NCBI GenBank assembly: GCA_003024785.1
Contig: PUQB01000134.1
Coordinates: 29,062-93,061 of the forward strand
DNA: 64,000 nucleotides
Direction: 5' to 3'
Origin: Selaginella tamariscina
Taxonomy: Eukaryota; Streptophyta; Lycopodiopsida; Selaginellales; Selaginellaceae
Under the pieces are notes generated by a model. That model saw only the letters and a list, made by a program, of their open reading frames with translations. It made no database searches and was not told the origin of the DNA. The stretch's first letter is position 1, and each line of letters starts with the position of its first letter. Of the stretch, positions 38,888 through 64,000 are shown piece after piece. A program made the position numbers and the translations under genes.

Positions 38888-39404
38888 GGATCGCTGCGTA
38901 CGCTCTGATGAACTCATCCCTTAAATATTCCACATTAGCCGCTAATTACCCAGTAACTTGGACCCTTCATCTCACGGCTTACATCTTGCCAGCGTTAAAC
39001 GCATGGTCTGGTTAAGTGGAACCTAAATTTATGAGTCCCGACAAAAAGAGGGGCTTCGGGCTCCCGGGCTTTGGACCCGGAATATTCTAAAAGTCTACCA
39101 GAATATTTTAGAATATCCTAAATATTCTTAAAATTTAGGATTTTGGCTCAGTTGGCAATTAACAACAAAAAATTATTTAATTATAGGCCATGTTTATACT
39201 GTATTATTAAAGTTTTATTTCAACACCAAGAGGTACATATTCAACACTTGTCACTTCTTCTTACGATTAGCAATGCTGCAATCGTGAACCACCAGTCATA
39301 CTTGACGTCGCTATTGCTTGGGTTGGGATTTCCTCTGGCTGGATGTTCTCTTTAATCATGTTCATAGCAATTCTCCCGAGCTCAGGTTCTTCTCAGTCCC
39401 AACA

Positions 39405-39539
39405 AGCAAGCATTGAGGACCCCCGTACCACTGCCTATATCCCAGATAGATCACCTGGCCTGTTTCTCCCCAGCTCGATAGCTGCAAGCATTGAGGACCC
39501 CGTACCACTGCCTATATCCCAGATAAGATCACCTGGCCA
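39405..39539. repeat. Tandem repeat, about 80-bp period, two copies
   Basis: The unit containing gcaagcattgaggacccc and gtaccactgcctatatcccagat occurs at 39405-39461 and 39485-39539, near the left end of element 1. Confidence 0.85.
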
Positions 39540-39818
39540 GGTGAGTCGTTCTATCACGAGCTGCATCAATCGAGTGCTCTTCGGTTGGTAGTCCATCCTG
39601 CATGTGAAGATAATGGTAAATACTTAAATTGTTGAAATGAAATGCCTACCATGGTTCTTGGAATTGCTCAGGATTATCAACAAGAATTTTGATGAAAACG
39701 CAGCGGATTATCGCGCAATCCTCTAGATGCATCTTGGAAGACAAGAAGGAGCAGGATGCTCTCTTGTTAAAACATCAAAAATCATTAATGAACTTCATGA
39801 ATAAAGAAAAAAGTACCT

Positions 39819-42615
39819 TCATCTTGTTGCAGTAGCCCCAACCACGCCCTCTGTAGATGTAGTACGTTGTAGCAAGTTGAAGGTCCACCACACTTGCAGC
39901 TGGACAACTTGATCCCAGGTGTTTGCTGCAGCAAACACAACCAACCAACCATTTGCAGCCATATGCATACCTGCAAACTGGAGTGCTTCATCGAACTTCA
40001 CTGGATCAAGGTAGAGGTATGGCGTATCACTCGTTGTATTTCCTGGCAAGGTCCCATTTGGAAGGTCGAAGATCACCAAGTTGAAACCATATTCTCCCGC
40101 AATATGCTGGTAGCGAGTCTGGCTGTCAGCTGTATGGTACCTGGCCACCTGTGTCTGAACTTTTCTATAAGGAACCAGTCTAGCGCAGGAACCTCCTCTT
40201 CCTTCTCATCCGTGAGCACGGCCTGTTGCATCTCCTCGATGTCATCAATCGCCAAGAAATTATCACCTCGAGTTGTAGCAAGTGAAGGGACGAATGTGAC
40301 CAAGTCATCCTTGATGTCCATGGTTCCCTGCGATGGTAGCACTTCAGATAAATTGAATAAGGCAGGGTCGCGAGTAGTGGAGGTGCCAGCTACTGTATCT
40401 GAGTTCTTCTTTGACTGCTGCACAGGCTGACGCCGCTTTGCCTTGGCCTTTGTCTTCTTAATGAAGTCGACCTCTGCCGGATCCCATGAGATGCATGGGA
40501 GATCTTTTGAGTGTTCATTGTAGAGATCCTTCTCCCATGTTGGTGGTTGCCCAGGTGGATAATCAAGCCAGAACGGTACGTTTACACGTTCGAACTCTGT
40601 CAGGCCAGATCTTGTCTTCGACCACATGTGTGGTGCTTCCATGTAATCTGACCAGAATACCATAGTCTGTGTGTGAGGCACCTTTCTCGCTGCGACATAC
40701 CTGTAATGAACATATAGTAGTGTCAGAATGTAACATTGTCAAGAAGATCATCCTTACCTCCAAATCATCCTTCTTGCTGTCTCTTCGTGTTCGAGGAACT
40801 CTTTCGGCTCTATGGAGTAAGTGAACTTCACACACTCATGGAATGGCTGGAACATCACGTTCTTGCATTTTACCCGCACTTCATCGTACCAAGTCGTGAA
40901 ATCTGTAACCGGCCTGGTCCACTCGCCATCCTCGATGAGTCCCGTGAGAATCTGGACTGCCTCCTCTCTGATCGCTCGCCAATACAAATCGATAATAAAC
41001 CACCTTATCCACTCCTTATCCTGAACACCCGGCAATCCAAGTGTCTCTTGCTCTCTCTTCAGTTCGAGACGTACCAGTTTATTGAAGTACATGATTCTCG
41101 TCTCGTTTGGAATTCTCGCCCTTGAAAGCGCGTACAGCTTTTCCAACCCCATCCATCTGCATTGTTTCCATGTGATTTGGGTCACCTTGTCGAACCACTC
41201 TTCACCCAATGCAGGATCGATGATGGCTAAGATCTTCATCATGCGCTTGTCATGCTTAATGTAGACCTGTTGTTGCTCCTGGTATTTGTTGCCTTTGGAT
41301 GCCCTTGCAGCCTTCTCAAGATCATCCTCAATCTCACTCTGTAATTCACAGACGTAATCAACTAAGTAATATAAGTGTGAGACGTGGTACCTCAAAAAAA
41401 TCTTTGCACAGATCAAATTCGGAAGTGGATGCCAAGCTTGTTGTCCAGTTGCGCTTTCCTTCCACTTTCTTATGTCATCTCGTTCCTTGTCACTGAGCCT
41501 GGCCAAGATCTTCGCTGTGCCCTCCTCACTGGTGCAACATGTCTTCACAGATAGCAGAAGATGTGGCAGTGTGGTTTGCACTGCCGTTGCGGAGGAACTG
41601 CATATTTGAAAATCTCGAAGTTAGTTAATCCTATGATCTAGAGGTCACTATGTTTACCTATTAATTTGCTGAAACATTGTCACAAGCTGAAGATTATCCA
41701 TGACCCCAGCACGGATGAAGCCTGAACGCACTCTCACTGCCCACTGATTCTTATCTTCCGTGTCTTCTATGTACAGCTTCTGAAGCACCTTTAGCCTGTG
41801 ATTACCATCCCAACAGATGAACTTCTTCATCGAAAGCATTGGTGCCCATTGCCGGAACATGTCAGACTGAAGCTCCTCCTCAAAAGCCAAATGCTGAGCA
41901 TACATCGCTTCATCGCTTCTCAATGCTGCCAGATCTGCATCTGTCATGGGGTCCCCAACTTGAAGGATGAACTGAGTGGTGTTGCGCAAATAACCAACTG
42001 CCTTCTTGAAACTCCTAGTCAAAGATTCCAGATCCGCTGGATTGACTCTCCGCACCTTTCATTTCCCAGAATTCGGCAAATAGGGACATCCGGTGCCTCT
42101 CCATATTCTCGGATTGTGATCTTCGCGAGAAGACGCACTGCACTCTCCGAATGCATGCTGGCTGCAATGTTGTAAACTTCCTCATTATCTGGCACTTCTG
42201 CTTTACCCTTCTTCTTCTTCTTAGCAGCCTCTGAATCTCCAGCAGCTTTGCGTCGTCTCTTCTTGTTCTTGGGTTCATCCTCTTCGTCACTCGACAAAGT
42301 CACTGCGCATGAGGCTTGTGTGCCTTCTGTCTGCTCCTGTGTCTCCTGTGGTAAGACATCATCCTCAACTTCTTCAACAAAGTCTGATTGTTCTTGTTGG
42401 GGTTGAACTACATCCTCTTGCTCTCCTGACCAGTCCTGCTGGCTTGCCTGTTCAACTGGAGCATCACTTGAAGGTCCTTGTTCCTGAACCACAGCCAGCT
42501 TCCTACTTCCTCTCCCACGACCCCGACGCCCTCTCTGAATTGCAGCTCTAGCTTCTGCTTCTCTCTCAGTAGGCTCCTTCATCTTCTTTTCTTGTAAACG
42601 TTGTGAAGAGCGCAT
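39819..42615 (-). CDS. ParB-like domain protein with possible methyltransferase-like C terminus
   Basis: The ATG at 42613-42615 opens a basic region with an AT-hook-like RGRRGRGRGSRK, a long acidic stretch and a nuclear-localisation-like KNKKRRRKAAG. A ParB/Srx-like domain follows: APDVPICRILGNE, VRRVNPADLESLTRSFKKAVG, then FICWDGNHRLKVLQ (the DGxHR box). A long helical middle (41.6-40.2 kb, introns near 41600, 41355 and 40720) leads to FNLVIFDLPNGTLPG and FDEALQFAGMHMAANGWLVVF, which resembles motif IV and its following strand in DNA methyltransferases, with DLPNG where DPPY/DPPW is usual. Frame shifts occur near 42060 and 40110. The ParB part is fairly convincing, the methyltransferase part speculative. 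The gene lies inside element 1, divergent from the transposase. Confidence 0.5.
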
Positions 42616-42700
42616 CTACAAAAGCAATAAGGTTTAACAAAAAACTGTAATAAATGTTCAAAGATGTTTAATAAAAAATAAAAAAACATACTAGCCCTCA

Positions 42701-43018
42701 CAGTCGGCGTGCCGACTGAGAGAGCAGTTGCTGTAAGTCCCAGTCGGCATGCCGACTGGGCCTGGCATCAAAGGGAGCCCAGTCGGCATGCCGACTGGGA
42801 CTGGCAACAAAGGGAGGCCCAGTCTGGGACTGGGAACGAAGCGAGGCCCAGTCAAAATGCTAGGTGGGACTAGAACAGTCAACCCTAGTCAAAATGCTGA
42901 CTGGGGCTGGAACAGTCAACCCGGTCAAAATGTTGACTGGATCTGGAACAGTCCACCCCAGTCGGCCTGCCGACTGGGACGGACAACGAAGTCAGTCCGA
43001 GTCGGCAGGCCGACTCGG
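42701..43018. repeat. Array of AGTCGGCATGCCGACT-type palindromes
   Basis: About nine units, roughly 35 bp apart. Full palindromes occur at 42701-42718, 42739-42760, 42778-42799, 42957-42978 and 42999-43019. Degenerate units (agtcaaaatgctgact type) lie at about 42849-42935. The units sit between the start codons of the two divergent genes of element 1. Confidence 0.9.
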
Positions 43019-43509
43019 ATTTCTTGCAACTGTGAAGAGATGTAAAAAGATGAACAGATCATGAAGAGATCATGAGCAGATCATGAAGAAATCAGAAAAT
43101 ACTCACCCCCTCAATGGAAGCCTATTGTGATTAATCCCTGGAGCCACACTTGCTCCACGCTATGCCCCCAAATGAGCCCCTGCTCCACGAAAACCTAGCC
43201 GCCCTAGCTGCCCTAGCGCCCTAATTGCAAAACCCTAGCCGCCCTAAATCAATTAAAAACCAACCTAATTTCTGTAAACATATTGCATGCATGATCGCCA
43301 CTTGTACATAGTAAAACTTTTTAATTTACAAAAAACCTACCCAGACGCAGTAAATTAATTTCACTCTTCTACCCAGACGCACGCAATTAATATTTTTTTA
43401 ATATTTGTCAATGAAATGATTGCCTCACGACTAACAAACACATTAACCATCGTGTGTAATATGTTCATTGTCTTTGAATTTTAACTTTTGTTTGTTCCAT
43501 TTTTGCTAC

Positions 43510-46500
43510 ATGGCAAGAATCAGCTACAATGGTGTTGACAAGGACTTCCCTGCAGATGAAGATGGTATTGCATTTGTCTTTGAAACAGATCTCAGGTCTG
43601 CATTTGACATTCCACCTTGGCAATCTTTTAAAGTGCTGCATTTGATGTCTGTTGTTGGTGGAGATGCTGCGAATGTTGAGGTAGAACCAGAAGGGGCAAG
43701 AGCTAGCAGTTTTGTGTATTACACACTTCTTCCTTCCAAAGGACCACTATTCCGGTTGGAGACAACAGATCGGGACAATTCTATGGTAACAATACTTCGC
43801 AATAGTCAGAGATGTAGGATTGGGAAGCAACTGGTGGTCTCGTCATCGATTCAGCAAGTTGCTGAGGTCCCAGAAGATTGCAACGGAAATGTGATTTACG
43901 AGTTGCCAGCACACGAAACAATGAAGGACAAGTACAAAGGGATGAATAGGAAGGATGGGTGTGATTACTGGACTCAACGCTGCACAACACATTGGAATGT
44001 TCCAGCTCGTGTTAGTCGCAGTTCATGTATTGGCCACATGAAATGCGTAAAGGAAACATGTCCGTTCATCAGCTTAAGTAAGAAAGCAAATGACTGCCAA
44101 TTTAAGGGCACCATTGATAAAGTCCAGTTATCTTCAGATGGTAGAGTGCTTGGAATGAAGTGTGTGCATTGCAACAATGAGCCCCTTCTAGTGCAGACAT
44201 GCTCCGTTGTTGCATATTACATAATTCCAGATGATATCACATGCACGAGGCTTTTCATCCATCTTGGAGAACATCAACATCCACGTAGACCACCCGAATC
44301 CATGGTCTCTAAAGACAGAGCTAAGGAGACAATCAACAAAGCAGTCGCTGCAACCCCAAGAACTAATCAACGTGTCATAGAGTTTCAAGCAGCACGCAAT
44401 ATAATTTTGGAAAAACTGGTAACAGATTCTGGAGATGTATCATACGACAAGGTTCTGTCAGATCTACTACCACTCACAAATCACCGCCGGTAAGCAAAAA
44501 AATTATTATTTCCTTTTGGAGATGCTTAACCTTTCCACTGTAGAACAAGAGAATGGATATCTCAGGCTAGAACAAGAGACACTCGTTTCAAAGAAGGTTA
44601 CGAAGGACTTCTGCAGTTAAAGAAGAAGCTATCAATCCCATTCATACATGTTATCCACATACCCGGAAATGGACCTCACGGAGCTGAAAGGCCTTTAATC
44701 TTCAAAATGACGTTGCCGGCCCAGGATCCGGAATAGACTACATTAGAAGGTGTCAATCTGGAGGTGATCTCGAACAGCAGTGGGTGCTAGACCACACATA
44801 TCGTATTGATGATTGGTGTACACTGGGAATACATCTCTATGATCCATTGTAAGTATTAACATATCTATGTTTTAAAATACTTACTAATATAATGCACTTA
44901 TGTTTGTGTAGTTTAAGGTCGATGGTGACACTTGCTTATGGTGACATGATCAGGGAGGATAGTGTGGCGGTGATCAAATTTTTGAACACTATGCTTCAAG
45001 TGTGCAGCAAGCAAGGACTTCATAATGTGAACTTTGCGGGTTCATGTCAGATGAGTCAGGTGCAATTTGGTTAGCATTGCGTCAAGTTTTCAACAATGGG
45101 TCAAAGATGAAAGGAAGAGAAAGGAGTTGTTTGTTCCATTACATGCAGTCAGTGCGTCAAGTTACAAAGAAGTGGATACTTGAGGAACACAGGGAGACAA
45201 TGAACCTTGCACGCTCATGGCCTGCAGCACTAACCAACCAAGATAAGTTGGAACGACGAGTAATGTTGGAGTCATTTTGGGAAGGCAGGTCCAGTAACGT
45301 TAGCGCTTTGCAAACATGGCTGTCATGGTGGGCAAGACATGAAGATCATATTTCCATGACAGAGATAATTGACTTGACAGAAGATGGTGTTGCGAATGTG
45401 CCTACCACTAACAACTCCGAAGTTGTTCATGCAAGAGCACGAAGAGCAAGGCTGACGAAGCGTGTTCCTTTGTTGGAGGCAACAATGTTAGATTTAACAG
45501 ATGCTGTTTTCCAAAGTGCAAAGGTCAAGGCATCATTTGAAGGGAGATATTCAGGCACAGGTCCTTCCATGGAAACTCTTCTGAAACGTGCACAGGAAAC
45601 TTTCAGCGGGAAAATCAGTGTCTCCAACAACTTTTGCAAATCTTGTTAGTGATGAAGAGCATCTTGCAAGTCCAGAGTTTGCCTCTACAACAAATGTTCG
45701 TGTTCGAACCGTTCGTCAACCGTCAACTGGGGACCATGGGATTGATGCGCTTCGTACACATAGACATGACACACAATATGCAGAACAAGTCATCCCAAAT
45801 GCACGCAGGAAAAAACTCAAGTTTCAAGATGTCAATGTCACTGAAAGAGAGACGTTGATGACTCAGTGGGCCATCAGACGCATTGGGGAGGCAAGTCAGG
45901 TGAAATGTCTAGGTCTCACTCAGGACGGTAACAGCAAGTGTGGCAGACCCATAGGATATCCACATCGTGTACCGGCACCAGGATTTCACGGTAGACGGCA
46001 ATATACAAATGCATTTGGGAACATTGAGTTCACTCATCAGATGTTATGGTTCTGCCCACGCGATTCTTGTTGCTTCAGACGACCATATGCAGGGATTCCT
46101 CCTGAGAGTATTCCAGAAGTTCCAGAGGTTTGGCCAGTTCAAAAAGGAACAAATTGAATGCAAATGAGGTTGAAGCTCTTCTGAAAGCAGGATTCAAGTT
46201 GGAGGGATTTGAAGAAATGGTAGACGACAGTAGTAGCCGAATGGATCGAACACCATCACCACCAAGAGGAGAGGGAGCACATAGAGTACCAACATACCAT
46301 GGACGGAGTGTGCGAACACCAACAAGAATGTCCAAGGAACATGAGAAACATTACAACCAAAGATTTTCAAGGTCGGATCAACAACGTGGAGGTGGTTCAA
46401 AGAGGGAAGACTGAGGCCTTCATTGTCTCTGCAGGCATGCAATCTGCTAAGGTAACAATTTCTATTGTTCCGTCATGCACTTGTGCAACTTTTCAGAAAG

Positions 46501-46840
46501 CCAAGAACTGGAGCCCCTGCCAACACATGTATTTTGTGTACACTCATGTTCTTGGATTGGACCCAACGATTACTTACTTCTTACAGAGACAGACCCTTGC
46601 TAAGGTAACAATTTCTACTGTTCTGTCATGCACTTGTGCAACTTTTCAGAAAGCCAAGAACTAGAGCCCCTGCCAACCATGTATTTTGTGTACACTCATG
46701 TTCTTGGATTGGACCCAACGATTACTTACTTCTTACAGAGGCAGACCCTTACTCCAGCAAAAGTGCATCGATTATTGGTTGATTGTAACGCAATGTCGAA
46801 CCTGCGACCTTTTAAGTCCAGTTGGTATAGTAAAGTCTAG
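43510..46840 (+). CDS. MULE-like DDE transposase with SWIM zinc finger
   Basis: The ATG at 43510 (MARISYNGVDKDFPADEDG) opens a 328-residue exon with a WRKY/FAR1-like Cys/His region (CDYWTQRCTTHW ... CIGHMKCVKETCPF, then HLGEHQHPRRP). After an intron at 44489-44544 the catalytic core follows: WVLDHTYRIDDWCTLG (first Asp), FAGFMSDESGAIW (second Asp) and SCLFHYMQSVRQ (the CxxH block). The SWIM finger is SCTCATFQKAKNWSPCQHMYF (CxC...CxH) near 46475. These are Mutator-like element hallmarks. Stops and frame shifts (for example near 44735 and 45050) show the copy is not cleanly functional as written. The 153-bp SWIM segment is duplicated in tandem. Confidence 0.7.
46446..46751. repeat. Tandem duplication of the SWIM-finger segment
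   Basis: The sequence from gctaaggtaacaatttct at 46446 recurs at 46599 with about 95% identity over 150 bases, so the SWIM-coding segment is present twice head to tail. The second copy has aactagag where the first has aactggag, giving a stop. Confidence 0.9.
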
Positions 46841-47221
46841 TCGACAAATAATTAGCGTTTTTCACTTGTTGGTCAGCATTTTATATTAAAAGTTAAAGAT
46901 AATCTACTTGGCAGAATATTCTAGAATATCCCGTTTATTTGACAGAATATTCTTGGATATTCAGGAATATGAGAAAAGCCCGTTGTACGAAGCCCGGTTT
47001 TTGCTAATCCTTGTTATTTATGCTCCGCTGGTAAGAATGTTAACTTGGTTTACCAAAAGACATTAATAATGTTGTATCTATAAATTGTACCGATGTTTTG
47101 TTAGATATTGATTATATATATAAACACACATACATACGTATCACAATTTCATTATATATATTATAAACTCGTATGTATGAAAGTATATATTACAAATTAA
47201 AAGAAGATACATCAATGGCTA
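46841..47221. other. Right end of element 1 and 3' flank of the receptor kinase
   Basis: It holds GAATATTC subterminal motifs up to about 46975, the putative inverted end, then an AT-rich stretch that should include the 3' UTR of the LRR kinase gene. Confidence 0.4.
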
Positions 47222-50174
47222 CTATTCATTTGCCAAGATTTCGAGTGATGGCTTATTGCTATAATCTAGTCTTCCTTGACTAATCTCCAACACCATAGCT
47301 AATGCTTCTTGAATATTTGGACGGCCACTTGGATTCGGAAGAGTGCATAACAAACCAACTTGAATCAATAACCTCAGAATCCTAAACTCATTATAAATCT
47401 CTAGATTTTGTGAAATCCACACCCGAAGACTACTTTCACTCTGCCGAAACAACTCATTTGTTGGAGACTTCTCACTGCCCAAAACAAGCAGCAACATACC
47501 AAAGCTGTACACATCACCCATGGTAGACATATGTAGTGCACTTGCATACTCTGAAAAATGTATGTAAGTTGCCAGGTTCACACGCAAGCAAGTGGAAACG
47601 TACCTGGTGGAGCATATCCAATGGTGCCTCTAAACCCACTGACTGAAACAAGATTGTCCTTCCCAGATACAAGTTTCGACAGCCCAAAATCACCTAGGTG
47701 TGCTGTAAAATCTGAGTCAAGAAGTACATTTTCAGGCTTCAGATCACCATGAACTACTGGAGTGTCGAAGTGATTATGCAGGTAATGTACCCCTTGTGCA
47801 ATGTCTATTGCGATCTTCAACTTAATGTCGACGCCTAGTGCATTCCTGCCGTTTAGATAGCTAGCAAGAGACCCGCTAGACATAAACTCCATAACCAAAG
47901 CTATGAGTTTGTCACTGCAGCAGTATCCCACCACTTTTGTGATGTTTCGATGTCGTAAACTAGCCAACGTTTTGACCTCAGTTAGGAAGCTCTCTTTTTG
48001 AGCTATGTCTTGTAGAACTTTTACAGCAACTTGCTTATCTTTCCATTTGCCTCTATACACCTTGCCATATCCGCCCTTTCCAACTAGTGTGGCATCGCTG
48101 AAGCTTTCTGTCATATCCAACAACTCGTCAAAGCTGAATGGAGATAGACCATCAATCCCGGCGGATCTTACTGCATTCCTTTGCGTGCGCCGAAGGTGTA
48201 CTCCGTAAGCACATATACATAATGCTGCACATATCAAGATGCTTGTCGTTACTGATACCGGCACCAGCCACTTGACCATCTTCTTCTTCTTATTCTGAGG
48301 ATTCGTCAATGGCGGAGAGGAACAATTCCCGGTGAGAATAGATCCACATAACAACTGGTTCCCTTGAAAAGAAGAGCTATTGAGCTTTGAGAATGATCCG
48401 TTCATTGGTACTGGTCCTTCCAACTGATTGTAAGATAGGTTGACAAACTTGAGGTTGTCTAAAGTGGTCAACTCATCTGGAATCCTCCCAGTCAGTGCGT
48501 TGATTGAAAGGTCGAGCGACTCAAGGGAGTGGAGCTGAATGAGTGCCGACGGAATCGTTCCGGTTAACATATTGTTGGAAAGGTTGAGTTGCATCACACC
48601 TTGCAGCCGCCCAAGGCAGCAGGAATCTCACCTGACAAGTTATTAGAGGACAGAGAGATGTTCACTACCTTGTCAAAGTTACCGATCCAGAGCGGGATCG
48701 TGCCTTGGAGATCGTTGTCTGAGATATCAAAGACGAAGACAAGGCTGCTGCCCAGACTTGCTAGCGAGGACGGTAGCGTGCCGTTGAGCTTGTTGTGTGA
48801 GAGATCCAGATACTGGAGACGACTGAGACTCCCTAGGCCAGATGGAATCTGACCATGCAAGCGATTTACTCCCAAGTCGAGTTTACTAAGGCTCTGTATC
48901 TGCCCTAGCTCATGAGGAATGTACCCCTCGAGCATGTGTTGCTCAGTGCAAGAATCCCAAGACTCTTGCAGTGGACGAGCGATGTAGGGATGTTTCCGGA
49001 CAGCTTGTTGAAGCTGAAAACCAATCGCTCGATCGCTGGAAGCGAACCCAGTGAGACAGGAATTCTGCCTTCAAGCTGGTTGGAATGCAACATGAGCTGA
49101 GATAGAGAAGACGCGTTACCGACAGTTGACGGAATGTTACCGCTCAACTTATTGGAGTAGAGGTAAATATACTTGAGCTTCTGCAGGTTCCCAATCTCTG
49201 GAGGAACTGAACCCTCGAGTGAGTTGTCATTGAGTAGCAGACGTATCAAGGACGAGCAGTTCCCAACCGAGGGAGGAATAGGCCCTGTAAGCGAGTTTCC
49301 TGCAAAGTCCAGGATTGTGTAGAGCTGACTTTGGATGCCTATTCCACTAGGTATAACTCCTTGGAAATGGTTCGAACTGAGGGAGAGCTCCTGTAAGTTG
49401 GTGCAGTTAGCCAGCCATGAAGGGACGTGCCCTCCAATCTGATTGAGGTAAACGTAGAAATAGAGAAGGTTTACGGGAAGCTGAGGAACCTCCTGCGGTA
49501 ACTCCCCCGTTAAGGAGTTCCATGAAAGCTCAAAGTCTCGCATTTTGGAGCAGTTCCATATGGAGATTGGGATCGGACCGCCTAAGCTGTTCTTGAAGAG
49601 GTACAAGAGTGAGAGATTCTCCATTCTGTGGAAAAATATCTGGAATCTTCCCAGTGAGTGAGTTGGAATGAAGGGACAAAGCTTGGAGGCCAGAGCAGTT
49701 TGCAAGAGACGGTGGAATTGGACCGCTCAGATTGCTTGCCTGTATTGCGAGACCACGCAACTTAGTCAGCCTGTGGAACATATCTGGGACTGGACCGCTG
49801 AGAGGATTCGGACCGAGTGCGAGTTGCTCTAGTAATGTGCAGTTTCCGAGCTCATGCGGGATATTTCCGATGAAATCGTTTGACTGGAGGTCCAGATAGT
49901 CTAAATATTCAAGCTTGCCTAGCATAGGTGAGATTGTACCGGTTAAGTTTTGCTCGTGGAGATCAATAGTTTGGATTCTGTTGCGATGCTTTGGATGACA
50001 TGTGATTCCTGTCCAGTTGCAGAATGGAGTGTTATTTGTCCAAGTCTGAAGAACATTACTCGGATCTTGTGTGATTGAGCTTCTAAATGCTAGCAGAACA
50101 TCTAAATCACTCTGTGCGTAAGTGCAGTAAGTGCACAAGATGAAGATGAAGATGAATTTGAATCCCATAAGCAC
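47222..50174 (-). CDS. LRR receptor-like kinase, non-RD, subfamily XII-like
   Basis: Starts at 50172-50174 with a signal peptide (MLMGFKFIFIFILCTYCTYA), an LRR cap (WTNNTPFCNWTGITCHP) and about 20 LRRs (LxGxIPxxLGN type). A transmembrane helix (WLVPVSVTTSILICAALCIC) precedes the kinase: GKGGYGKVYRG (P-loop), VAVKVL (Lys), VVHGDLKPENVLLD (catalytic loop) and LGDFGLSKL (DFG). A short intron (47551-47611) precedes the last exon (GDVYSFGMLLLVLGSEKSPT ... stop). HGD in place of HRD makes it non-RD, as in FLS2/EFR-type immune receptors. The LRR frame is broken by single bases near 49650, 48935 and 48597; the repeats continue undisturbed across each. A Ty3/Gypsy LTR lies 190 bp upstream. Confidence 0.88.
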
Positions 50175-50362
50175 TTGTCAAGTTGTAGCGTACAAAGGGC
50201 TGAACGAGCTGTGTGAAAAGGAAGCGCAGCTATTTTTGTACAGAGGAGATATTATAAAAAGATATTATCTTTGATTTCAAAACCGTGTTGTAAACAACAG
50301 TGGCCAATTGTCATTGACAATTTGTCAAGCTCATTGTGAAAGAGCAGATATATAAAATGAAA
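50175..50362. promoter_or_regulatory. Short promoter region of the LRR kinase gene
   Basis: Only 188 bases separate the kinase start codon from the LTR, so the proximal promoter is short and the LTR may contribute regulatory sequence. A ttataaaaag sequence lies at about 50252. Confidence 0.4.
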
Positions 50363-50540
50363 TGTCAGATACTATTCAATTACAAAACCTTGCTTATATA
50401 GGAGACCTCCTGTCACGTGGCACACATGCAACACGTGGCGCTAACACATGGGGGCCAGATCACCACCCATGTGTCACTACGCATGTGTGTATATACACAT
50501 GCGTATATACGGTATGTTACCTAATATATAGTATCTTACA
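50363..50540 (-). repeat. Candidate 3' LTR of the Ty3/Gypsy element
   Basis: On the minus strand this 178-bp segment begins TGTAAGATACTAT and ends ATAGTATCTGACA, i.e. TG...CA ends with matching inverted termini. A purine-rich tract (GCAAAGGGGAGGATAA, 50541-50556) sits directly before it, as expected for a polypurine tract. A CTATATAAGC promoter-like motif lies inside. Confidence 0.75.
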
Positions 50541-53500: not shown

Positions 53501-53700
53501 ATCACATGTACCTTTCGACTGCTTTAACCAATCACATTCCCAGAATGATGTCAAGACCTGGGAAGGGACAACCCTAAGAGACCCAGAGGGAAACTTACAG
53601 TTGGCACCATAACCAGCGTAGTCGAAGTGGTGTACTTGTGATACTGCACGAAGACTGCCCATTACTATATAAAATGTGCAAGACCTTATCTGCTCGTCTC
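50363..53700 (-). mobile_element. Ty3/Gypsy LTR retrotransposon, broken and 5'-truncated
   Basis: In minus-strand order the pol region is seen: part of the protease or its flank, reverse transcriptase (52.7-53.2 kb), RNase H-like region (52.0-52.3 kb) and integrase with a C-terminal domain (50.56-51.9 kb), ending at the polypurine tract and a single LTR. This order (RT-RH-INT) is that of Ty3/Gypsy. No gag and no second LTR are visible, so the left-hand (5') part is missing, probably where it meets the AT-rich DNA at about 53.7 kb. The copy is a fossil with numerous breaks. Age cannot be estimated from one LTR. Confidence 0.88.
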
Positions 53701-54240
53701 AAGGGTAATGAGCACCAATGTGCCAGAGAAGTAATGCAAGTTGTAACTAAAATGGGCATGGCTATAGTCCCATTTCCTAATAATTAGCAATTTTAGCTAT
53801 TTAATTAGCATTTTCTAATATTAAAGGAATATTCTTTAGAATATATGTTTGAAAAGAGAATATTCTTTAGAATATTCTATTTTGTATTCTACCCTTTAAT
53901 AAATTATAGCATTCATTGAACAAAAATTAATAACATTATAAAAGTAGAATGTATTAAATTATATAATATATTGCCTAATATAACAATTAAGGAAGAGCAT
54001 AAGAGGTACATTATATAAATATTGATGTTGTTATTAAAATATTAATATTTAAATATAACATTATTAATTAAAAATTTGTAGTAGTAATAATATATATATA
54101 AAATCCTATAATAATATAGTCAATCTTCCATATCATTTTTTAAATTTATATAGTTAAGTATACAATTTGGTACTATTATTAAAGAGTTTATAATAATTAT
54201 GAATATTAAATATATGATATTTTATAATTTTGTAATTGCT
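53701..54240. other. AT-rich stretch with GAATATTC motifs
   Basis: No gene. GAATATTCTTTAGAATAT-type motifs recur at 53830-53880, like those near the ends of element 1 and in the 58.9-59.5 kb and 60.5-60.6 kb regions. It may be the left end of element 2. Confidence 0.5.
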
Positions 54241-57200
54241 TTAAGCTTCAGAAAACATACATTCCCTTGCAGTTTTGTTAATCGTGACTTTATCAACGCT
54301 TCTTGACATCCACCCATATCGAATGGATTTAACATTTATAAAACATGCTGGGTCTTTTTGATTGGGAGACCATGTTTTCTCTAGGCATCCATTATATCTT
54401 TCGCTCTCCTTCTCGTGTCGCCTTTTTTGTGGTTTGAACCATGCAACCTTAACAATACTATTTTTTGTGATTACTTCAGGTGTGTCGATAATTTGACCCA
54501 TCCAAATAGGCTGATTATATGACGCATCTGGAGTAATGAGAACCATCATTAGTTTTTGAAGATCCTTGCAGCAATCAAAGTATGCTTTAGGTTTTTGGTT
54601 CCTTTGTCCAACAAAGTGTGGGGTTTGCACTTCCACATCACTACTGGCTTCTATGTCGTCTTGCTCAGTGATGTCATTTCAATCTCCTCTCGCCACCTTG
54701 TTTTAGGCCAGAAAGGGTGTTGCAATTCTGTACTTGTGACAGTAGGCCCTTCCAACTCTCGAACAACAGTCTCCCAATAGTACCACATGCTTATATAGTT
54801 CTGAGTAACCAGTTGCCTTATCAGAATTCTTTGGCATCGATTTTTGAACCCATGCCACATATTTTTTGATGCCATCAATAATAACCTCTTGTTCCTTGAG
54901 CTGGGCACTCAATGGAATAGGGTCTGGTTGTCCTTCTGGGAGAAGTGGCTTTCCATCCTCTCCACTTTTGAAGAGCATTAAGCCCTCTTTCGGTAACCAC
55001 TCCTGCTCTGATGGCCGTAACTTGTACTGCATAATAGGTATACCATCTCGTATGGAGAAAAAGAATTGTAGCGGCACAAGGTGACCAACTAAAGAATCAC
55101 TCCCTTCTTTTATATACTCCTTGAGAAATTTTTTGAAGTCTGGCACCTCAGTCACAAGCAAAGCACAACTTTTTTTGGAGATGCAATTTTCAAAAAGATT
55201 CATCATATGCGGTAAGTAAGTGCACTTGTCCTTTTTGTAGAGTTGGAGACCTTGCTGAAGAACGCATCAATATCTTCATGAGTGTGACCAACCATAAGGA
55301 AACTGAGCGTGATTGTTTCAAACACACCTTTGGCAACAAGCATTGACAAGTATGCTAGCACATATCTAGAAAATAAAAGTAAGTATGAGCTTGAGAAACC
55401 CTTAAGTAAAATGATTTACCTATTTTTGTTCTCGCCTGCACAATTATCCATCTGTAAAAGCAAATGACGAGGAAGCTTATTTGATGTTGAGGACACATGT
55501 ACACTATTTGAGCTAGATCCCTCCACTGAACCTGAACTCTCAACAGGGCCATCTGTTTTGTGCAGGCTGTTGACAATGCCTCTCATATTCCCAAGTAGCC
55601 TCAAGTGCAGACGTGTTCATGAGAGCATTATGTAAAGGTTGAAGGTGTTGTTTCTTCACTTTGAGATCACTGATAGGACTTGTCTGTGAGTGGGCTTCAA
55701 GGTTTCTGAAACACATGGCTAACGACCCAATAGTGAAATTGGAGTCGCTAGACCAATGTGGAAGTGAAAAGTGTCCATATGACTCACAACCGTGTCCATG
55801 TGTTAGCACACCTGTCAATGAAATCGGAAGTTTCATGACATTTCCAAGGCACTTTGGTGTTGCAAAGAGCTTTGGAATGCTGGTCTTTGAATGATCCATC
55901 TTGTCATGGATCAAGCACAGGTACTCTGATGGGCGTGACACAGAAAGCATGCGGTGTGCATAGTACTGAGACCGGCAAGTTTGTTGTGCAATCATGTGGG
56001 CCTCCATCTTCCTTTGAATGGTAGTGATCTCCACCAAGGTTTTTGCACAAGCCTCTGCAGCCTTCAATGATGTACAAGTGTCACACTTGAAAAGCTAGAG
56101 TGTTTTGCAATCTCCACATCCTTAAAATGAGTATTCCATATGTTGTTGAAGGTACCAGTGCAGATTGCTTGGAGCCCCATCAAACTGAGGCACTTGTTCA
56201 CATGTTCACACAGTTTCAATTGAGTGTAGATTGAAGGCAAAACCTTGAGATTTTCCCTGACCCCTGCATTTGTGGTTCGGCATTTGTGAGGCATCCTGTC
56301 TGCATTTGCTTCCACAAAAGCCTTGAGTATCTCTATGGCTGCCATGATGTGAGAGCGGGTTTTGACCAAGCGAGTGTTCCCATGAACTGAGGTTCGCGCT
56401 CCATCTAGCCACTCATCCCTCGACGGTAGAACGTGGTCTTTGGGATCCCGTATATACTGTACCAAGCTTTGAAGCAGATGGCCACCTTATTAAATACCAT
56501 GGATGTACTCTGATAACCTGTGTCCGAGGCCATTCCATCAATACACCCAGTTAGTGCAGCATATACAAACTCATGCCTTTGCTTTTGGGTGAGCATACGA
56601 AAGACATGTCTACATTGGGTAATTTCATTCCGGTCTGCCATCTGACAACACTTCTTCTTGCAACAGTCAATCGTGGAAATGCTCGTAACACTTTCGGAAG
56701 ATGTAGGATCCATCTTTACCCTCTTGCTGAAACTTGCAGGGGAAGATCTACAACCCATGAATCGCCTTTTTCTTACAATAGGACCAATGCAAGGAACCTC
56801 TTCAAATATGAGTTGTTCTTCCGGGTTGTTATTATTGAAATCCAACCCAGAATATGTTGAACCATCTTGCCGTCTTAATTCAGATGTTCGCCACCTCACG
56901 AGGGATCCAGGATACAATGTGCCATTAGGTGAAACCTCTGTCACAACTACACCCACGAAGTCGGACCCTAGTTTCTCTTCTGACACTGCTTCCATTGGAT
57001 TTATAGCTGTGATGATGCCTCTTCCGACTTCAATCTCACGAAGAAAGAGAATCACCTCATCCATCACAGCAGGCAAGCCATCATCTGGTAAACTCGTGCT
57101 ACTATTTGTTTGTGACTCTGCATATTCTGTGTCAGCCTTGACTTCATCCAAATTCCACAATACAGGAGAACCCTCCTCAAATTCCATTCCCAGAACCTCA

Positions 57201-57364
57201 ACATGCTTGTAAATGGTGTTCACCCATACGTACACACAAGATCCTTGGGCAATATTGTGACATGATGCATTATTATCTCGAACTTCCACAGTTCCAGTGC
57301 CAACTATCTCGTTGTTCCGAAGAAGACATACTTTATCTCCAGTATTAAACATATTGTCCTGCAC
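54241..57364 (-). CDS. DUF7869-like transposon protein (putative DDE-type)
   Basis: The leftward gene starts at 57362-57364 (MQDNMFNTGDKVCLLRNNEI). The N-terminal 200 residues contain two beta-rich blocks (VYVWVNTIYKHVEVLGMEF; VVVTEVSPNGTLYPGSLVRW). A Cys-rich segment (CCKKKCCQMADRNEITQCRH) follows, then helical parts (KTRSHIMAAIEILKAFVEAN). The core reads LLQMDNCAGENKNRYVLAYL, then LSFLMVGHTHEDIDAFFS, the paired Asp-Asn and His-x-His-x-Asp-x-Asp blocks of DUF7869-type proteins, which have a DDE/RNase H-like look. The region after it (54.3-55.2 kb) contains EWLPKEGLMLF. Frame changes at about 56465, 56070, 55600 and 55250 may be introns or breaks. Role in transposition is inferred. Confidence 0.55.
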
Positions 57365-57503
57365 ATAAATAATTGTATTATTTATGATATCTGTTTATGC
57401 AATATTTCTAAGAAATCTGAATTACGGTTACTTAATAATATGCATATGCAATAATACATAATTATGTTTAGAGATAATATCTCATGTTTGATTAATACAA
57501 CTG
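57365..57503. promoter_or_regulatory. Gap between DUF7869-like gene and palindrome array A
   Basis: An AT-rich 140 bp directly upstream of the leftward start codon, likely its promoter. The palindrome array begins immediately beyond. Confidence 0.35.
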
Positions 57504-58280
57504 ATGGGCGGGATTAATCCCGCCCACGAATCCCTCCGACGAGGAACGGTCGGCGGGATTAATCCCGCCGCCGACTCAACCCCTTCGGAGAGAGTCGGCG
57601 GGATTAATCCCGCCTTGGACTCCCTCCGACAAGGAAGAGCGGGATTAATCCCGCCGCCTCTTCCTCCTCGGGGGAGTCCGGCGGGATTAATCCCGCCGAC
57701 TCTCTCCGACGAGGAGAGTCGGCGGGATTAATCCCGCCGACTCCCTCCTCTCGGAGAGAGTCGGCGGGATTAATCCCGCCGGACTCCCCGAGGAGGAAGA
57801 GGCGGCGGGATTAATCCCGCCGGCTCTTCCTTGTCGGAGGGAGTCCAAGGCGGGATTAATCCCGCCCACAATTCTTACGACGGGGAATGGGTGGCGGGAT
57901 TAAACCCGCACATAACTCTCTCCAAAACTATGATTTCAAAGAGATCTCGGGATAAATCCTGTCCCCAAATCCTTAAAACAGGGATGTGGTGGCGAGATTA
58001 ATCCCGCCACCCCTTCCCTGCCTCCTAAAATGGTTGGCGGGATTAATCCCGCCGACAACTCTTTCTAATAAATTCTGGTAACTCTTCATCAGTTGAGAAG
58101 GTTATCGGCGGGATTAATCCCGCCACTCTTTTTCAGTGGCGGAGAAGCATTGCCCGAGAGATGGTGGCGGGATTAATCCCGCCACCTCTTCGAAGAGGCG
58201 AAAAAGAAATGGCCGGATTAATCCCGCCGCCCGGTTAACCTAGAATATTAAGTTAAAAGGATATTTAAACGGGATAAATC
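57504..58280. repeat. Palindrome array A (GGCGGGATTAATCCCGCC)
   Basis: About 16 copies of the perfect 18-bp palindrome or one- to three-base variants, 40-70 bp apart, e.g. at about 57506, 57552, 57597, 57638, 57679, 57719, 57763, 57804, 57849, 57893, 57992, 58034, 58106, 58164 and 58212. Spacers between 57600 and 57865 are themselves mirrored about 57733 (ctccctccgac ... gtcggagggag), so the central part is a large inverted repeat. GC-rich and CpG-dense, set in AT-rich DNA. Confidence 0.95.
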
Positions 58281-59139
58281 CCTAACGGAATATATTATAA
58301 TCCTAATGCATTCCTAAACCCCTAAATTGTAATTTTAAGAGAGAATGTAAGAGAGTGAATCTTTATAAGTATTTTTAAATTTGTTTATAATACTTACTTG
58401 TAAACAGCACTGAAGGCGCCGTGCTTTCCTATAAAGAATAGCACCCAATTTAATCTCGCTCCTGAGATGATCACTATGAAGAAAAAAGAAGATCTAAAGA
58501 GTGAAAAATACAGAAATGAAGAAACCCTTGCCGGAGAAAGAACCAGATCTGAATTTGAGTGGGAAATTAAATGCATTTTCAAATTTACATGTCAGACCGA
58601 CAATACATATGTCAGAAATTCAAATTTTTTAAAAAGAACAGAAAATAAAATTTAAGATGAGTTGACACAAATATCCGACACTCTGACATATATACTCTCC
58701 AGTTCCAATGAGTATTTTAAAATTGCATTTAATGTTATTCAAGTGATTCAAGCTGTTTAATATTACGAAATTTTAGACTATATTCTACATTCTTAGTATT
58801 CAAGTATATTATATTATATATATATATAAATATACTTATACAATAAATAAATTGATATATTATTATGTATCATTTAAAATATATTCATAGTCTGTTTATT
58901 ATTATTATTTTCTTAATTACTCGAGTATTTAGTTTTCATTTCCTAGTATCAATGGGATATTCTTTAATATTTTATTAATATTTGAAGAATATTCTAATAT
59001 TAAACCTGATTATCATAATTAAATTAGTCTTGTTCTTAATTATTGCAGTAATTATTCTACATTTGTATATATTAATGGGATTTTCTCAATTAATTTGTTA
59101 TTATTTCAAGAATATTCATGTGTTAAACCTTATTATCAA

Positions 59140-59575
59140 TATTAAATTAATACACACTATGAACATATTTTAAATTATACATAATAATACATCATTTTAT
59201 CTAATATATAGTCATATATAGTTTTAATAATATATATATTAATATCATTTCCTTAATTACTTGAGTAATTAATCTTCTTTATATTAATGGGATATTCTTT
59301 ATTATTTTCTTATTATTCCAAGAATATTCCAATATTAAACATGATTATGATAATTAATTTAGTTAATTATTTGAGTACTTAATTTACATTTGTATATATT
59401 AATGGGATTTTCTCAATTAATTTCTTATTATTTCAAGAATATTTCAATGTTAAACCTTTTTATCAATATTAAATTAATATATATTATTAAAACTATATAT
59501 GGCTATATATTAGATAAAATCATATATTATTATGTATAATTTAAAATATGTTCATAGTGTGTTTATTAATATTAT
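59140..59575. repeat. Inverted repeat with arms of about 105 bp
   Basis: 59140-59248 is nearly the reverse complement of 59465-59575 (shared cacactatgaacatatttta and the following bases). A further related direct copy lies at about 58840-58890. The inner 215 bp carries repeated gatattcttta...gaatattc units. Confidence 0.75.
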
Positions 59576-59824
59576 TTTCTTAATTATTCGATGTTTGTTT
59601 TGCACACATATATAAACACAATCATAAATTTACACACGCATTACAAGAACTTACAAAAACACATATGCACACACATGCACAACCCTAAACCAAACTGAAG
59701 AAATATGTTGCTTCTTTATTGAAAACATCATGTTCAACGCATGTATGATATATGTACTCAATCTGTGTGTATGTAACACATTGAATTTACATGTGTAATA
59801 TTTATATTAAGCTTGTTGGGAGCA

Positions 59825-60348
59825 AACCCTAAACCCTAAAGTGTATACATGTGTGTACAAAAATAATTTTTCAACACTCTCTCTTCACACCATGCATGAT
59901 CCATCCTAAACCCTAAACCCTAAACCCTAATATGTAACACAATGAATTTACTCATGTAATATGTATGTATGTCTGTGTGTATACACGTGTGTATGTATAT
60001 ATGTGTACTTTCTGTCTTCTCTCTCATACATACACACCATGCATGATCCATGTTAATATGTACTGTCTCTCTTCTCTCAAACATACACACCATGCATGAT
60101 CTATAATATGTACTCGGTCTCTCTAATATTATGTACTAATATGTATGTATGTCTGTGTGTATAATACACACCATGCATGATCCATAATATGTACTGTCTC
60201 TCTTCTATATATATGTGTAAGTATATATGTGTACTAATATATGCAATGTGTACAAAAATAATTTTTCAACACTCTCTCTTCTCTCATACATACACACCAT
60301 GCATGATCCATCCTAAATCCAAAACCCTAAACCCTAAACCCTAAACCC
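59825..60348. repeat. Interstitial telomere-type repeats
   Basis: Short runs of the plant telomere unit CCCTAAA: two at 59825-59840, three to four at 59905-59930 and four at 60322-60348, separated by catgcatgatccat and (TATG)n sequence. Confidence 0.9.
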
Positions 60349-60709
60349 ATGTAATATGTATGTATGTCTGTGTATATTATGTGTATTAATATATGCAATG
60401 TGTATGTATGTATTGATACACATGAAACTTTAACACTCTCATGGACACACACATGTTAAATCCCTGCATGATTTATATTTTTGGGGTGTATGTGATACAC
60501 CCACGCACACGCACGCGCTAATAATATAATGAAAGAATATTCGTTTAGGGCGAATCTATATTTTATTCTTTTTAGGGTTTAAGTATATTCTCAGAAGGAA
60601 TATTCTATTAGGGTTAATATATATATTTAATTCCTTTAGGGTTTAGGTATATTCTTAGGGTTTCAAGAGGCGGCGGCTGTGAAATCGGCGGCGGCGGCTG
60701 TGCACACAG

Positions 60710-60715
60710 GTGAGA

Positions 60716-60760
<45 letters not shown>

Positions 60761-61019
60761 AGGAGTGTGCGTATAAATTTATTTATTAGTTTTATCTCTC
60801 GCACACACACGCACACTCCTGTGTATGTATATGTGTGTGTGGGTGTGTGTTTGTTTATCTGTATGATTTTATTTGTTTCGCTCACACACGCATACACACG
60901 ATATACATATACACATATATATATATACCTATATACATATATACATACATATATTATGTGTACCAGTATCTGTAAATTTTTTTTTATTGATCTATCTCTC
61001 CCACACACACGCACACTGC

Positions 61020-61069
<50 letters not shown>

Positions 61070-61693
61070 ATATATGCATATTAACAAATAGTATACAACA
61101 CTAGTTTATATATATGCTTATATATTCATATGGGTTATATATCTATATACACACATATATATATGTGTGTTTATCTGTATAATTTTATTTATTTATTAGT
61201 TTTATCTCTCGCACACACACGCACACTCCTGTGTATGTATAGTGTGTGTGTGTGTGTTTGTTTATCTGTATGATTTTATTTGTTTCGCTCACACACGCAT
61301 ACACACAATATACATATACACATATATATATACCTATATACATATATACATACATACAACACTAGTTTATATATATGCTTATATATTCACAGACTCTCTC
61401 TCTTTCTCTATGGATTATATATCTATATACACACATATATATGTGTGTGTTTATCTGTATAATTTTATTTATTTATTAGTTTTATCTTTCGCACACACAC
61501 GCACACTCCTGTGTATATATATGTGTGTGTGTGTGTTTGTTTATCTGTATGATTTTATTTGTTTCGCTCACACGCATACACACGATATACATATACACAC
61601 ATATATATACCTATGTACACACATATATTATGTGTACCAGTACTGTATAATTTTATTTATTTATCTATCTCTTGCACACACACGTACACTCCT

Positions 61694-61752
<59 letters not shown>

Positions 61753-61815
61753 TATATATATGTGTGTGTTTTTATCTGTATAATTTTTTTATTTATTAAT
61801 TTTATCTCTCGCACA
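60710..61815. repeat. Minisatellite with units of about 280-410 bp rich in (CA)n and (TA)n
   Basis: The block tttatttattagttttatct + ctcgcacacacacgcacactc recurs at about 60778, 61191, 61471 and (in part) 61791. The companion block atgattttatttgtttcgct recurs at about 60862, 61269 and 61549. Confidence 0.85.
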
Positions 61816-61827
61816 CACGCTAAGCCC

Positions 61828-63262
61828 CTCGAGCGGCGGGATTAATCCCGCCGCTATAGGTTTATGGCCTCGGCGGCGGGATTAATCCTGCCGCTCACCC
61901 ATGCCCTGCGCGGAATGCGGCGGGATTTATCTCGCCGGCAATGGCCTGTGTGAAGGCCCTAATGGGCGGGATTAATCCCGCGGATTCTGCGCAGGGCATT
62001 TACAGGGGATGGGCGGCGGGATTAATCCCGCCGCTCATGAGGCTAACCAAGAGCCTGCATGAAAGATCCTGCACGGAAGGCTAACCAAGAGCCTGCATGA
62101 CATGTCCTGCACGTAAGGCGGCGGGATTAATCCCGCCGCCCAGGGAATTCACGCAGGACATGAACGGCGGGATTAATCCGGCCCCACTCATGCCCTTCGC
62201 GGAGGGGCGGGATTAATCCCGCCGCTCAGGCACTTCCGCAGGATATAAGCGGCGGATTAATCCCGCCCCACCCATCCCTGTTCAAAATGCCGCAGCCAAT
62301 ATATATGTGTGAGCGCATGATTTACGAGAGGGCGGCGGGATTAGTCTCTCCGAACCTTCATTACCGTGGCGGGATTAATCCCGCCACCCTTCTTTTTTCC
62401 TCCATTGGTATGTTGAATCATCCCGACTAACTCTGTCTTAGACGGAGAAGGTTTACAAAATACCAATGGAGGGAACTGAGAAGGGTGGTGGGATTAATTT
62501 CACCATCCCTTACATGGTGGCGGGATTAATCCCGCGTACGCATGCCCTGTGCAGAATCGGGCGGGATTTATCCCGCCGCCATTGGCCTGTCTGAAGGGCC
62601 TAGGCGGCGGGATTAATCCCACAAGATTTCGCACAGGGCATTGGCGTTCGGCGGGATTAATCCTGCCGACTAAGGCCCGAGTGAAGGGCCTGGGAGGCGG
62701 GATTAATCCCGCCGGACGCCAATTCCCTGCACGGAATCGGGCGGGATTTATCCCGCCGCCATTGGCCTGCCTGAAGTGCCTAGGCGGCGGGATTAATCCT
62801 GTTCGATTCCGCGCAGGGAATTGGCGTCCGGCGGGATTAATCCCGCCGCATAGGGACCGAGTGAAGGCCCTGGGCAGCGGGATTAATCCCGCCGAGTCTT
62901 CAATGCCTGTTGGAGGAATGAATCCCGCCACCCTTCGTTTTTTTTCTCCATTGGTGAGTCGGACCAATCCCAAACGTTTCTGTCTAGACGTAAAGGTTTA
63001 CAACATACCAATGGAGAGAATTGGGAAGGGTGGGGAAATTCATTTAACCATCCTTACATGGTGGGCGAGATTAATCCCGCCTCCTTTCTGGAGTCACTGA
63101 AGGGGTGTGAGAAATAAATCCTGCCCAGTTCTCTCTGAGACCGAGAAGGGTGGCAAGATTAATTCCGCACTCCCGTTCAAGGCCTCTAGAAAGGTGGCGA
63201 GATTAATCCCGCCCACTCTTTCAGGAGGCATTGAAGGGGTGGCGAGATTAATCCCGCCGCAC
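61828..63262. repeat. Palindrome array B (GGCGGGATTAATCCCGCC)
   Basis: More than 20 copies of the same palindrome and variants (GGATTTATCC, GGAGATTAATCC types). Many sit as loops inside longer stems: atgccctgtgcagaatc / gatttcgcacagggcat (62541-62642) and ccaattccctgcacggaatc / gattccgcgcagggaattgg (62719-62825). An inverted tccattggta / taccaatgga pair frames other units at 62402-62470 and 62943-63016. Copies become degenerate toward 63260. Confidence 0.93.
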
Positions 63263-63370
63263 CTTCCATGTGAATATATATGTGTATTAGTATATATAAG
63301 TTGCATATCTCATTTTTTACTTTTATCATCTTATCATAATATTTCGAGTAAAAGCTAGGAATCTATGTAA

Positions 63371-63457
63371 AACTGTCCAGAGCTCACATTTGTGGTGGTT
63401 CTAAAACGAAATGTTATCTTTCTTTTGCATTAACACAAATGTGAGCTTCGGACAGTT
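63371..63457. repeat. Hairpin with 24-bp arms
   Basis: Arms 63371-63394 and 63434-63457 pair except for a 2-base internal mismatch (agctcacatttgtg stem), with a 39-base loop. The size would suit a plant miRNA precursor or a small foldback element. No evidence of expression. Confidence 0.6.
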
Positions 63458-63601
63458 AATTACGTCTACTTACTCTTTCTGTGTATTATTTTGTATATTC
63501 GGGTTTATACAAGTGTGTGTGCGTTTTTATATGATTTGTATTCATAGTGTATTATTTTGCAGAAGGACGATTTGATCAAACAAGGAGATCGAGTCATTAA
63601 T

Positions 63602-64000
63602 ATGGAGTCGTCAAATTTTGGGTAAGAATTAAAATAAAGTCTGTTATACTCGGATACTTGAACTAAATCATTTTGTATTCAGATGTGGAATTGAGGTGAC
63701 ATTAAAGACAAGAGCAGGAGAAGAGATTGGGCAGGGGGATTCTGGAATCAACTTGGCCATATTTTAAGATAAATGGGAAGCGCATTGGAGCAACCATGGC
63801 TGCTGTCAAATTAACCTCTGTCACATCTCATGGACAAGCAAAACAATGGAAAATAGATTCGCTAGTCAAGCACCCGAAAGCAGGCTGCGAACCCAGATTG
63901 GACGATTCTCGACATATGCCTTGTTCCATCCAATGTCACGTTCTCGGATCCAGAGGTCGTCAGTTACAACATTAATTTTGGGTGGTTTTGTCGACTTGTG
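63602..64000 (+). CDS. Unrecognised gene start at window edge
   Basis: The ATG at 63602 opens a short exon (MESSNF) with donor at 63622, then an acceptor at about 63680 and CGIEVTLKTRAGEEIGQGDS. From there frames conflict: one stops near 63766, another continues as GKRIGATMAAVKLTSVTSHG ... QCHVLGSRGRQ. No family is recognised. Its place, reading away from array B and opposite to the DUF7869-like gene, parallels the gene pair of element 1. Confidence 0.3.

Follow-up and report, generated by a model that had tools for sequence, protein, structure and literature searches.

The window analysed here, a stretch of 64,000 nucleotides of the Selaginella tamariscina genome (positions 29,062 to 93,061 of contig PUQB01000134.1, assembly GCA_003024785.1), contains two transposons, Element 1 (E1) and Element 2 (E2), and in each of them two divergent genes stand around arrays of short palindromes (Table 1). 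An earlier note on this DNA had described this common plan, and the layout holds in both elements when the sites are counted against shuffled sequences. The left gene of E1, placed there at 39.8-42.6 kb, reaches further, to about 39.44 kb, within an element of 39,033-47,012, and the region given as 53.7-64 kb, with a DUF7869-like gene and arrays, is indeed occupied by E2, which starts at 53,734 and runs past the window. Genes of this genome are apparently spliced, and telomere-like runs of the plant type are present.

Table 1. Features of the two elements, in window positions.
Feature	Position	Strand	Description
Element 1	39033..47012		Mutator-like transposon (class fitted from sequence), ends GAGTCCCGACAAAAAG... 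/ ...TTTTTGCTAATCCTT
E1 left gene	39438..42615	-	several exons; frames broken in window copy
E1 palindrome array	42702..43015		core (CCC)AGTCGGCATGCCGACT(GGG), spacing 39-40 bp, middle decayed
E1 right gene	43510..46820	+	Mutator-type transposase with SWIM zinc finger; start and end by eye
Element 2	53734..64000, continues past window		DNA transposon, 27-bp terminal inverted repeat
E2 left gene	54244..57394	-	DUF7869 domain; DUF7869 exons E 8.3e-20, 1.5e-6, 7.9e-6
E2 array A	57507..58228		core GGCGGGATTAATCCCGCC, 15 sites, adjoins left gene
E2 spacer between arrays	58229..61834		AT- and CA-rich, with CCCTAAA runs
E2 array B	61835..63258		core GGCGGGATTAATCCCGCC, 24 sites, adjoins right gene
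Start of E2 right gene	63602..64000	+	by eye; cut by window end

The E1 array holds five sites with at most three mismatches to its 16-bp core (0.17 expected), and the two E2 arrays together hold 39 sites at the same tolerance (0 expected). Perfect palindromes of at least 12 bp number 2 in the E1 array (shuffle mean 0.05; the largest shuffle also gave 2) and 13 and 11 in the E2 arrays (shuffle means 0.39 and 0.63, respectively), and in the rest of the window palindromes of at least 12 bp and at least 30% G+C are scattered without clustering. The E1 array begins 87 bp upstream of the left-gene ATG and lies approx. 3.7-4 kb from both element ends, and the E2 arrays are 3.6 kb apart.

Each position of the E2 core is 87-100% constant over the 39 sites, and among 30 units the pairwise identity of the cores is 0.93 and that of the spacer ends (outer 10 bases each) 0.32, where the selection of sites by core similarity inflates the first figure and leaves the second unaffected. 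Spacers so unlike each other speak against plain tandem duplication, which would have left them alike. The E1 spacers are more alike than those of E2, because the E1 unit is a 39-40-bp repeat (120 of 132 spacings measure 39 or 40 bp). Each core, in E1 and in E2, carries two CpGs, and therefore methylation could gate binding. Helical phasing was also considered and dropped, since the E1 spacing of 39-40 bp and the E2 spacing of mostly 40-46 bp give no clean multiple.

E1 fits a Mutator-like element, because of its 9-bp target duplications and the SWIM finger in its right gene. All nine bases of the duplication agree in each of six flank pairs built from nine left and seven right ends (four pairs unshifted, two only with a one-base shift); the window copy matches at 6 of the 9 bases only, and a second copy on contig C69, collinear with the window copy, has no target duplication at its flanks. 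The left border recurs in nine of nine further copies, with the marker word exact in seven and letters changed in two, and the terminal inverted repeats are imperfect, with G[AG]CAAAAA..GGGCTTC, read by eye, common to both ends. The SWIM finger of the window copy (Pfam, E 4.1e-5, 23.5 bits) is above the cut-off of 19.6, the one in the C69 transposase exon (15.1 bits) is under it, and the C69 copy has an open transposase exon of 607 amino acids. The Pfam MULE-type DDE transposase domain had no match in the window exons or in this 607-residue exon, the intron-containing gene having been scanned in pieces. At about 46,445-46,750, approx. 150 bp across the SWIM region are duplicated in tandem in the window copy but not in the C69 copy.

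In E2 the 27-bp terminal inverted repeat is ATGCA[AC]GTTGTAACTAAA[AG]TGGGCATG, as read in a copy on contig C655 and on the window contig, and the element measures, by hand, 14.7 kb on the window contig and 14.3 kb in C655; the right gene is cut off in the window because the right terminal repeat lies past the window end. A 4-bp target duplication is exact in only two of four copies. The DUF7869 domain of the left gene reaches 71.6 bits against a cut-off of 26. For the exon at 56,408-57,394, the best 122 of 5,531 candidates were scored, with 119 at 100% and three at 99% protein identity, and for the C-terminal exon of the right gene, read in C655, the best 141 of 5,848 candidates are 99-100% identical and all 141 are open. 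Copies of E1 are likewise 98-100% identical at the DNA level (tested exon, best 30 loci), the lower protein identities among them being taken for frame slips. Both elements are thus represented by very young copies, and their amplification is recent. A test of CpG decay for the methylation history of E1 was uninformative because its copies are so alike. Open frames range from 207 to 632 amino acids for the E1 transposase and from 329 to 680 for the E2 exon among otherwise near-identical copies, which suggests that assembly errors or recent decay have introduced small indels.

Several further observations concern E2 itself. The protein encoded at 56,408-57,394 has a weak match to Transposase_23 (TNP1/En-Spm, E 0.13), and near the right end of the element (locus L037, 3,334-3,912) there is an open stretch that resembles NLI/FCP1-type phosphatases by eye (Pfam NIF, E 0.076). 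The central spacer at 58,300-61,800, with plant-telomere-like CCCTAAA runs and long CA/TA microsatellites, is largely collinear and kept in C655. C655 also contains an older E2 copy in inverted orientation, with 90.7% identity across 1.87 kb (L037, approx. 6,080-9,730), and in the palindromes of this older copy many CpGs appear by eye to have changed to TpG or CpA, a pattern expected for methylated dead copies.

The genome that was searched comprises 300.7 Mb in 1,391 contigs; gene places in it are best-scoring candidates only, site positions are the first matches listed, absences from either are weak evidence, and each site pattern reversed served as its control. Genome-wide, the exact E1 16-mer has 1,142 occurrences and the exact E2 18-mer 27,128, with 0 for both reversed controls. 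Two E2 copies carry 18 exact sites each, from which the E2 total roughly corresponds to some 1,500 element equivalents. Within the best-scoring 30 loci per gene, at least three sites (up to three mismatches) are present in 27 of 30 E1 loci (at least one in 29) and in all 30 E2 loci; the number of E1 sites varies from 0 to 11 among the near-identical loci, some of which are cut by the locus edge.

The 50 E1 palindromes among the matches listed form eight arrays, and all eight adjoin an E1 gene place, so that the listed arrays do not lie away from the genes: six stand beside a left-gene place, one (C13) beside a transposase place, and for the eighth (C112) an E1-type methylase exon lies at a distance of 3.16 kb. 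When places within 15 kb of each other are paired, 90 of the 136 left-gene places that were scored have a transposase partner among the scored ones (88 of these pairs divergent, with a median gap of 3.7 kb, and two not), and 89 of the 150 scored transposase places have a left-gene partner. For E2, the 30 contigs common to the left- and right-gene listings give 11 pairs under the same limit of 15 kb, ten of them divergent and 8.0-8.8 kb apart, the eleventh not divergent. The first 100 listed sites of E2 are all on contig C1; they fall into 17 clusters, and 12 of these make six pairs 3.1-3.8 kb apart, which matches the two-array plan of the window. In the full copies C69 and C655 the arrays lie well inside the element ends, not outside the borders.

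A sister family of E1 (C120), whose left protein is 63% identical, was found at two places, and a stretch of 401 bases was read at the matching upstream position. A near-perfect 16-bp palindrome was not found in this stretch. The most frequent 8-mer there is AGTCGGCA, identical to the E1 half-site, with six exact copies (0.005 expected from shuffles) and eight copies when one mismatch is allowed (0.27 expected), and the array is a TGCCGACT-rich repeat. The longer sister repeat GTGCCGACTGAGAGTGACGGCAC has 588 and 546 genomic occurrences on the two strands at up to one mismatch (reversed controls 0); among the first 100 places listed, most clusters are separated by 130-138 bp. This repeat lies upstream of six of six methylase exons of a type other than E1 among the matches listed (two each on C14 and C113, one each on C50 and C111), on their strand and at distances, measured by hand, of 3,264-3,289 bp. 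These sister-type exons were recognised by a match that ends at profile position 219, not 220, and we infer that they belong to the C120 family. Each family thus has its own array, and a half-site is common to E1 and the sister, whose left proteins are related, as would be predicted for a DNA-binding protein that is conserved while its site clusters evolve.

The left protein of E1 has a charged N-terminus, a middle part without family assignment and a C-terminal domain that resembles N6-adenine/N4-cytosine DNA methylases of the beta class; methylase and weak, chance-level matches are all that Pfam scans of its exons returned. The exon at 39,438-39,623 of the window copy (N6_N4_Mtase, E 3.8e-5, 24.2 bits) is slightly below the cut-off of 26.7, and most other E1 copies, with approx. 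37.8 bits over the S-adenosylmethionine-binding motif I region, are above it. Weak matches to phage methylases and to PDB entries, including MboIIA (E 0.022) and N4-cytosine methylases, were also seen. The usual catalytic motif of such enzymes is (D/N/S)PP(Y/F/W). In E1 this DPPY-type motif is replaced by DLPNG in 12 of 12 distinct aligned variants, the window copy included (29 matches, reduced by dropping duplicates and short ones), and therefore the left protein is probably a non-catalytic binder of DNA or cofactor, with a derived and probably inactive methylase fold. Five other N6_N4 methylase-like exons differ from E1 in match or frame length (C1293:521691, C1016:101040, C586:478833, C565:331665 and C516:760708), and some of them may represent further families, each perhaps with its own array.

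To hypothesize, the arrays would be groups of binding sites with dyad symmetry, of which each transposon family has its own, and they would stand in a promoter region common to two divergent element genes, where a dimeric protein encoded by the element would bind them and keep the element genes expressed; dense clusters of dyad sites at divergent promoters suggest a dimeric regulator. The protein could act like VANC in VANDAL elements, by promoter activation, by countering the methylation that the host places on these CpG-bearing sites, or by both. The likeliest binder in E1 would be the methylase-like left protein, and E2 may work alike. We are rather confident that the arrays function as binding-site arrays, and we consider it probable that the binder is element-encoded, although for its purpose, anti-silencing or self-activation, the chances appear about even; the proposal as a whole is one that we favour by a narrow degree. 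The idea of element-specific binding sites had been raised in the earlier note, and what stands of it is that the sites are family-specific, inside the elements and between divergent genes, with a motif of its own for each family; what falls is its comparison with the subterminal repeats of En/Spm, as the location is central in both elements.

Several results weigh against this proposal. A recognised DNA-binding domain was not found in the E1 left protein by Pfam scans of its exons, and the E2 right protein gave neither a match in scans of domain and structure-sequence libraries nor, in a comparison of single sequences with low sensitivity, similarity to the E1 left protein. Among the best 150 scored, no transposase place lies within 15 kb of 46 of the 136 left-gene places, and 61 of the 150 scored transposase places have no left-gene place within that distance. 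As the copies are young and near-identical, the counts over 30 loci represent one plan copied many times rather than independent events, and the E1 sites lie in a 39-40-bp repeat that slippage could spread. In the sister family, Tandem Repeats Finder reported no array in the 401-base stretch, many of the listed arrays have no scored methylase exon nearby (scores cover the best 150 of 739 candidates), and at least part of the half-site sharing with E1 could stem from a promoter inherited in common.

It seems unlikely that the transposase and not an accessory protein binds the arrays, as internal sites for transposition enhancement or strand pairing. The arrays do adjoin the transposase promoter and are inside both full copies compared, and the right end of the C69 copy has three one-mismatch half-site words within 0.2 kb (locus L038, 9,263-9,321), which may be chance, as about six one-mismatch 8-mers are expected per 8 kb (by hand) and one such word lies near the right end of the window copy as well. 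However, the E1 array is kilobases away from both ends, the ends of the window E1 have no palindrome at up to three mismatches nearby, and the sister half-site accompanies a related left gene. We find it quite improbable that the arrays are functionless minisatellites which arose by slippage and were carried along by recent amplification: the regular E1 spacing and the varying number of E1 sites would agree with such an origin, but both families show perfect dyad symmetry, the E2 spacer ends are near unrelated (32%) next to cores that are 93% alike in sites picked for core similarity, and the E1 half-site is the commonest word of the differently built sister array.

An element protein that is an active sequence-specific methylase, which would place N6-adenine or N4-cytosine marks on the palindromes of its own promoter, is an improbable alternative, because the catalytic motif is replaced in every distinct variant, even though the domain is above the Pfam cut-off in many copies and the weak PDB matches are to such enzymes. 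That the palindromes extrude as cruciforms, or are origins of replication or partition sites, is hardly credible to us. Perfect inverted repeats reach a length of 28 bp, and inverted repeats also make up some of the E2 spacers; nevertheless, the dyad symmetry of the spacers is barely above that of shuffles (6.2 vs 5.5), and a role of structure only needs no single conserved sequence. Centromere-like partition sites had been suggested because of a 134-residue "ParB-like" piece in E1, whose few ParB-like residues (DGNHR) were read by eye; the piece matched no ParB model or structure, and its fold prediction reached a confidence (pLDDT) of 35 only, with no usable fold. Partition by ParB was rejected, as five kinds of library (Pfam, PHROGs, NCBIfam, PDB sequences and tblastn of phages and plasmids) gave no ParB match. 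A reading of the E2 right gene as ParB plus methylase, from motifs seen by eye, was dropped too, since the library scans and the comparison with E1 found nothing.

Our preferred explanation, the family-private binding sites of an element-encoded protein, has its nearest known parallel in the VANDAL elements, which are Mutator-like and carry extra genes as E1 does. According to two papers (PMC5735166, PMC10398659), the targets of VANC21 and VANC6 are family-specific motifs, repeated in tandem in the noncoding parts of these elements, and VANC binds the short motifs and causes silent marks to be lost. The same papers describe dense noncoding repeats, including some upstream of the transposase, that are quickly gained and lost, and they give the VANC21 motif as YAGTATTAY, which is 9 bp long and non-palindromic, whereas the E1 and E2 cores are palindromic. 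Like the VANDALs, the elements here have arrays of family-specific motifs in noncoding DNA: the three array types (E1, sister and E2) each adjoin their own gene family. The Mutator-like class is a point of likeness for E1, the methylase is the sole Pfam family found in the E1 left protein, and anti-silencing here is proposed by analogy. With Mutator-like elements in general, E1 has in common the 9-bp target duplication, the SWIM transposase and extra genes, and in the main text of a survey of such elements neither "methyltransferase" nor "Selaginella" occurs (PMC6446971).

Other systems are alike in part only. En/Spm (CACTA) also has a self-encoded protein, TNPA, with many short CpG-containing sites inside the element, but the TNPA sites are subterminal, the arrays of E1 and E2 are central, and En/Spm is of another superfamily. 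Bacterial ParB-parS has a palindromic site of similar length, unlike the dense arrays inside transposons seen here, where a ParB domain was not found. With the beta-class methyltransferases (Pfam N6_N4_Mtase) the E1 left gene has the C-terminal motif I region in common; its catalytic motif is replaced, a long N-terminus without assignment is fused to the methylase-like region, and its carrier is a eukaryotic transposon. A search of the open-access literature returned no paper that mentions DUF7869 and none that joins ParB-like, transposable element, plant and DNA methylase, and in the titles and abstract openings searched no such arrays are reported, the VANC papers aside.

Between the two elements the window also contains a leucine-rich-repeat receptor kinase gene (47,580-49,730) and an H2C2 integrase remnant (51,229-51,960).

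The arrays bear on the question of how transposons can multiply to very high numbers in spite of silencing; sequence-specific anti-silencing is known in detail chiefly from the VANDALs of Arabidopsis. It is possible, if on balance unlikely, that unrelated superfamilies in one plant genome have converged on a divergent promoter with element-specific dyad sites and an element-encoded binder; in E1 this binder would be a DNA methylase of bacterial type that was captured, is no longer catalytic and now serves as an anti-silencing reader of DNA. One family, E2, alone supplies 27,128 identical 18-bp sites, and E1, its sister and E2 together offer three families with clean candidate motifs and candidate proteins. 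The hypothesis is directly testable.

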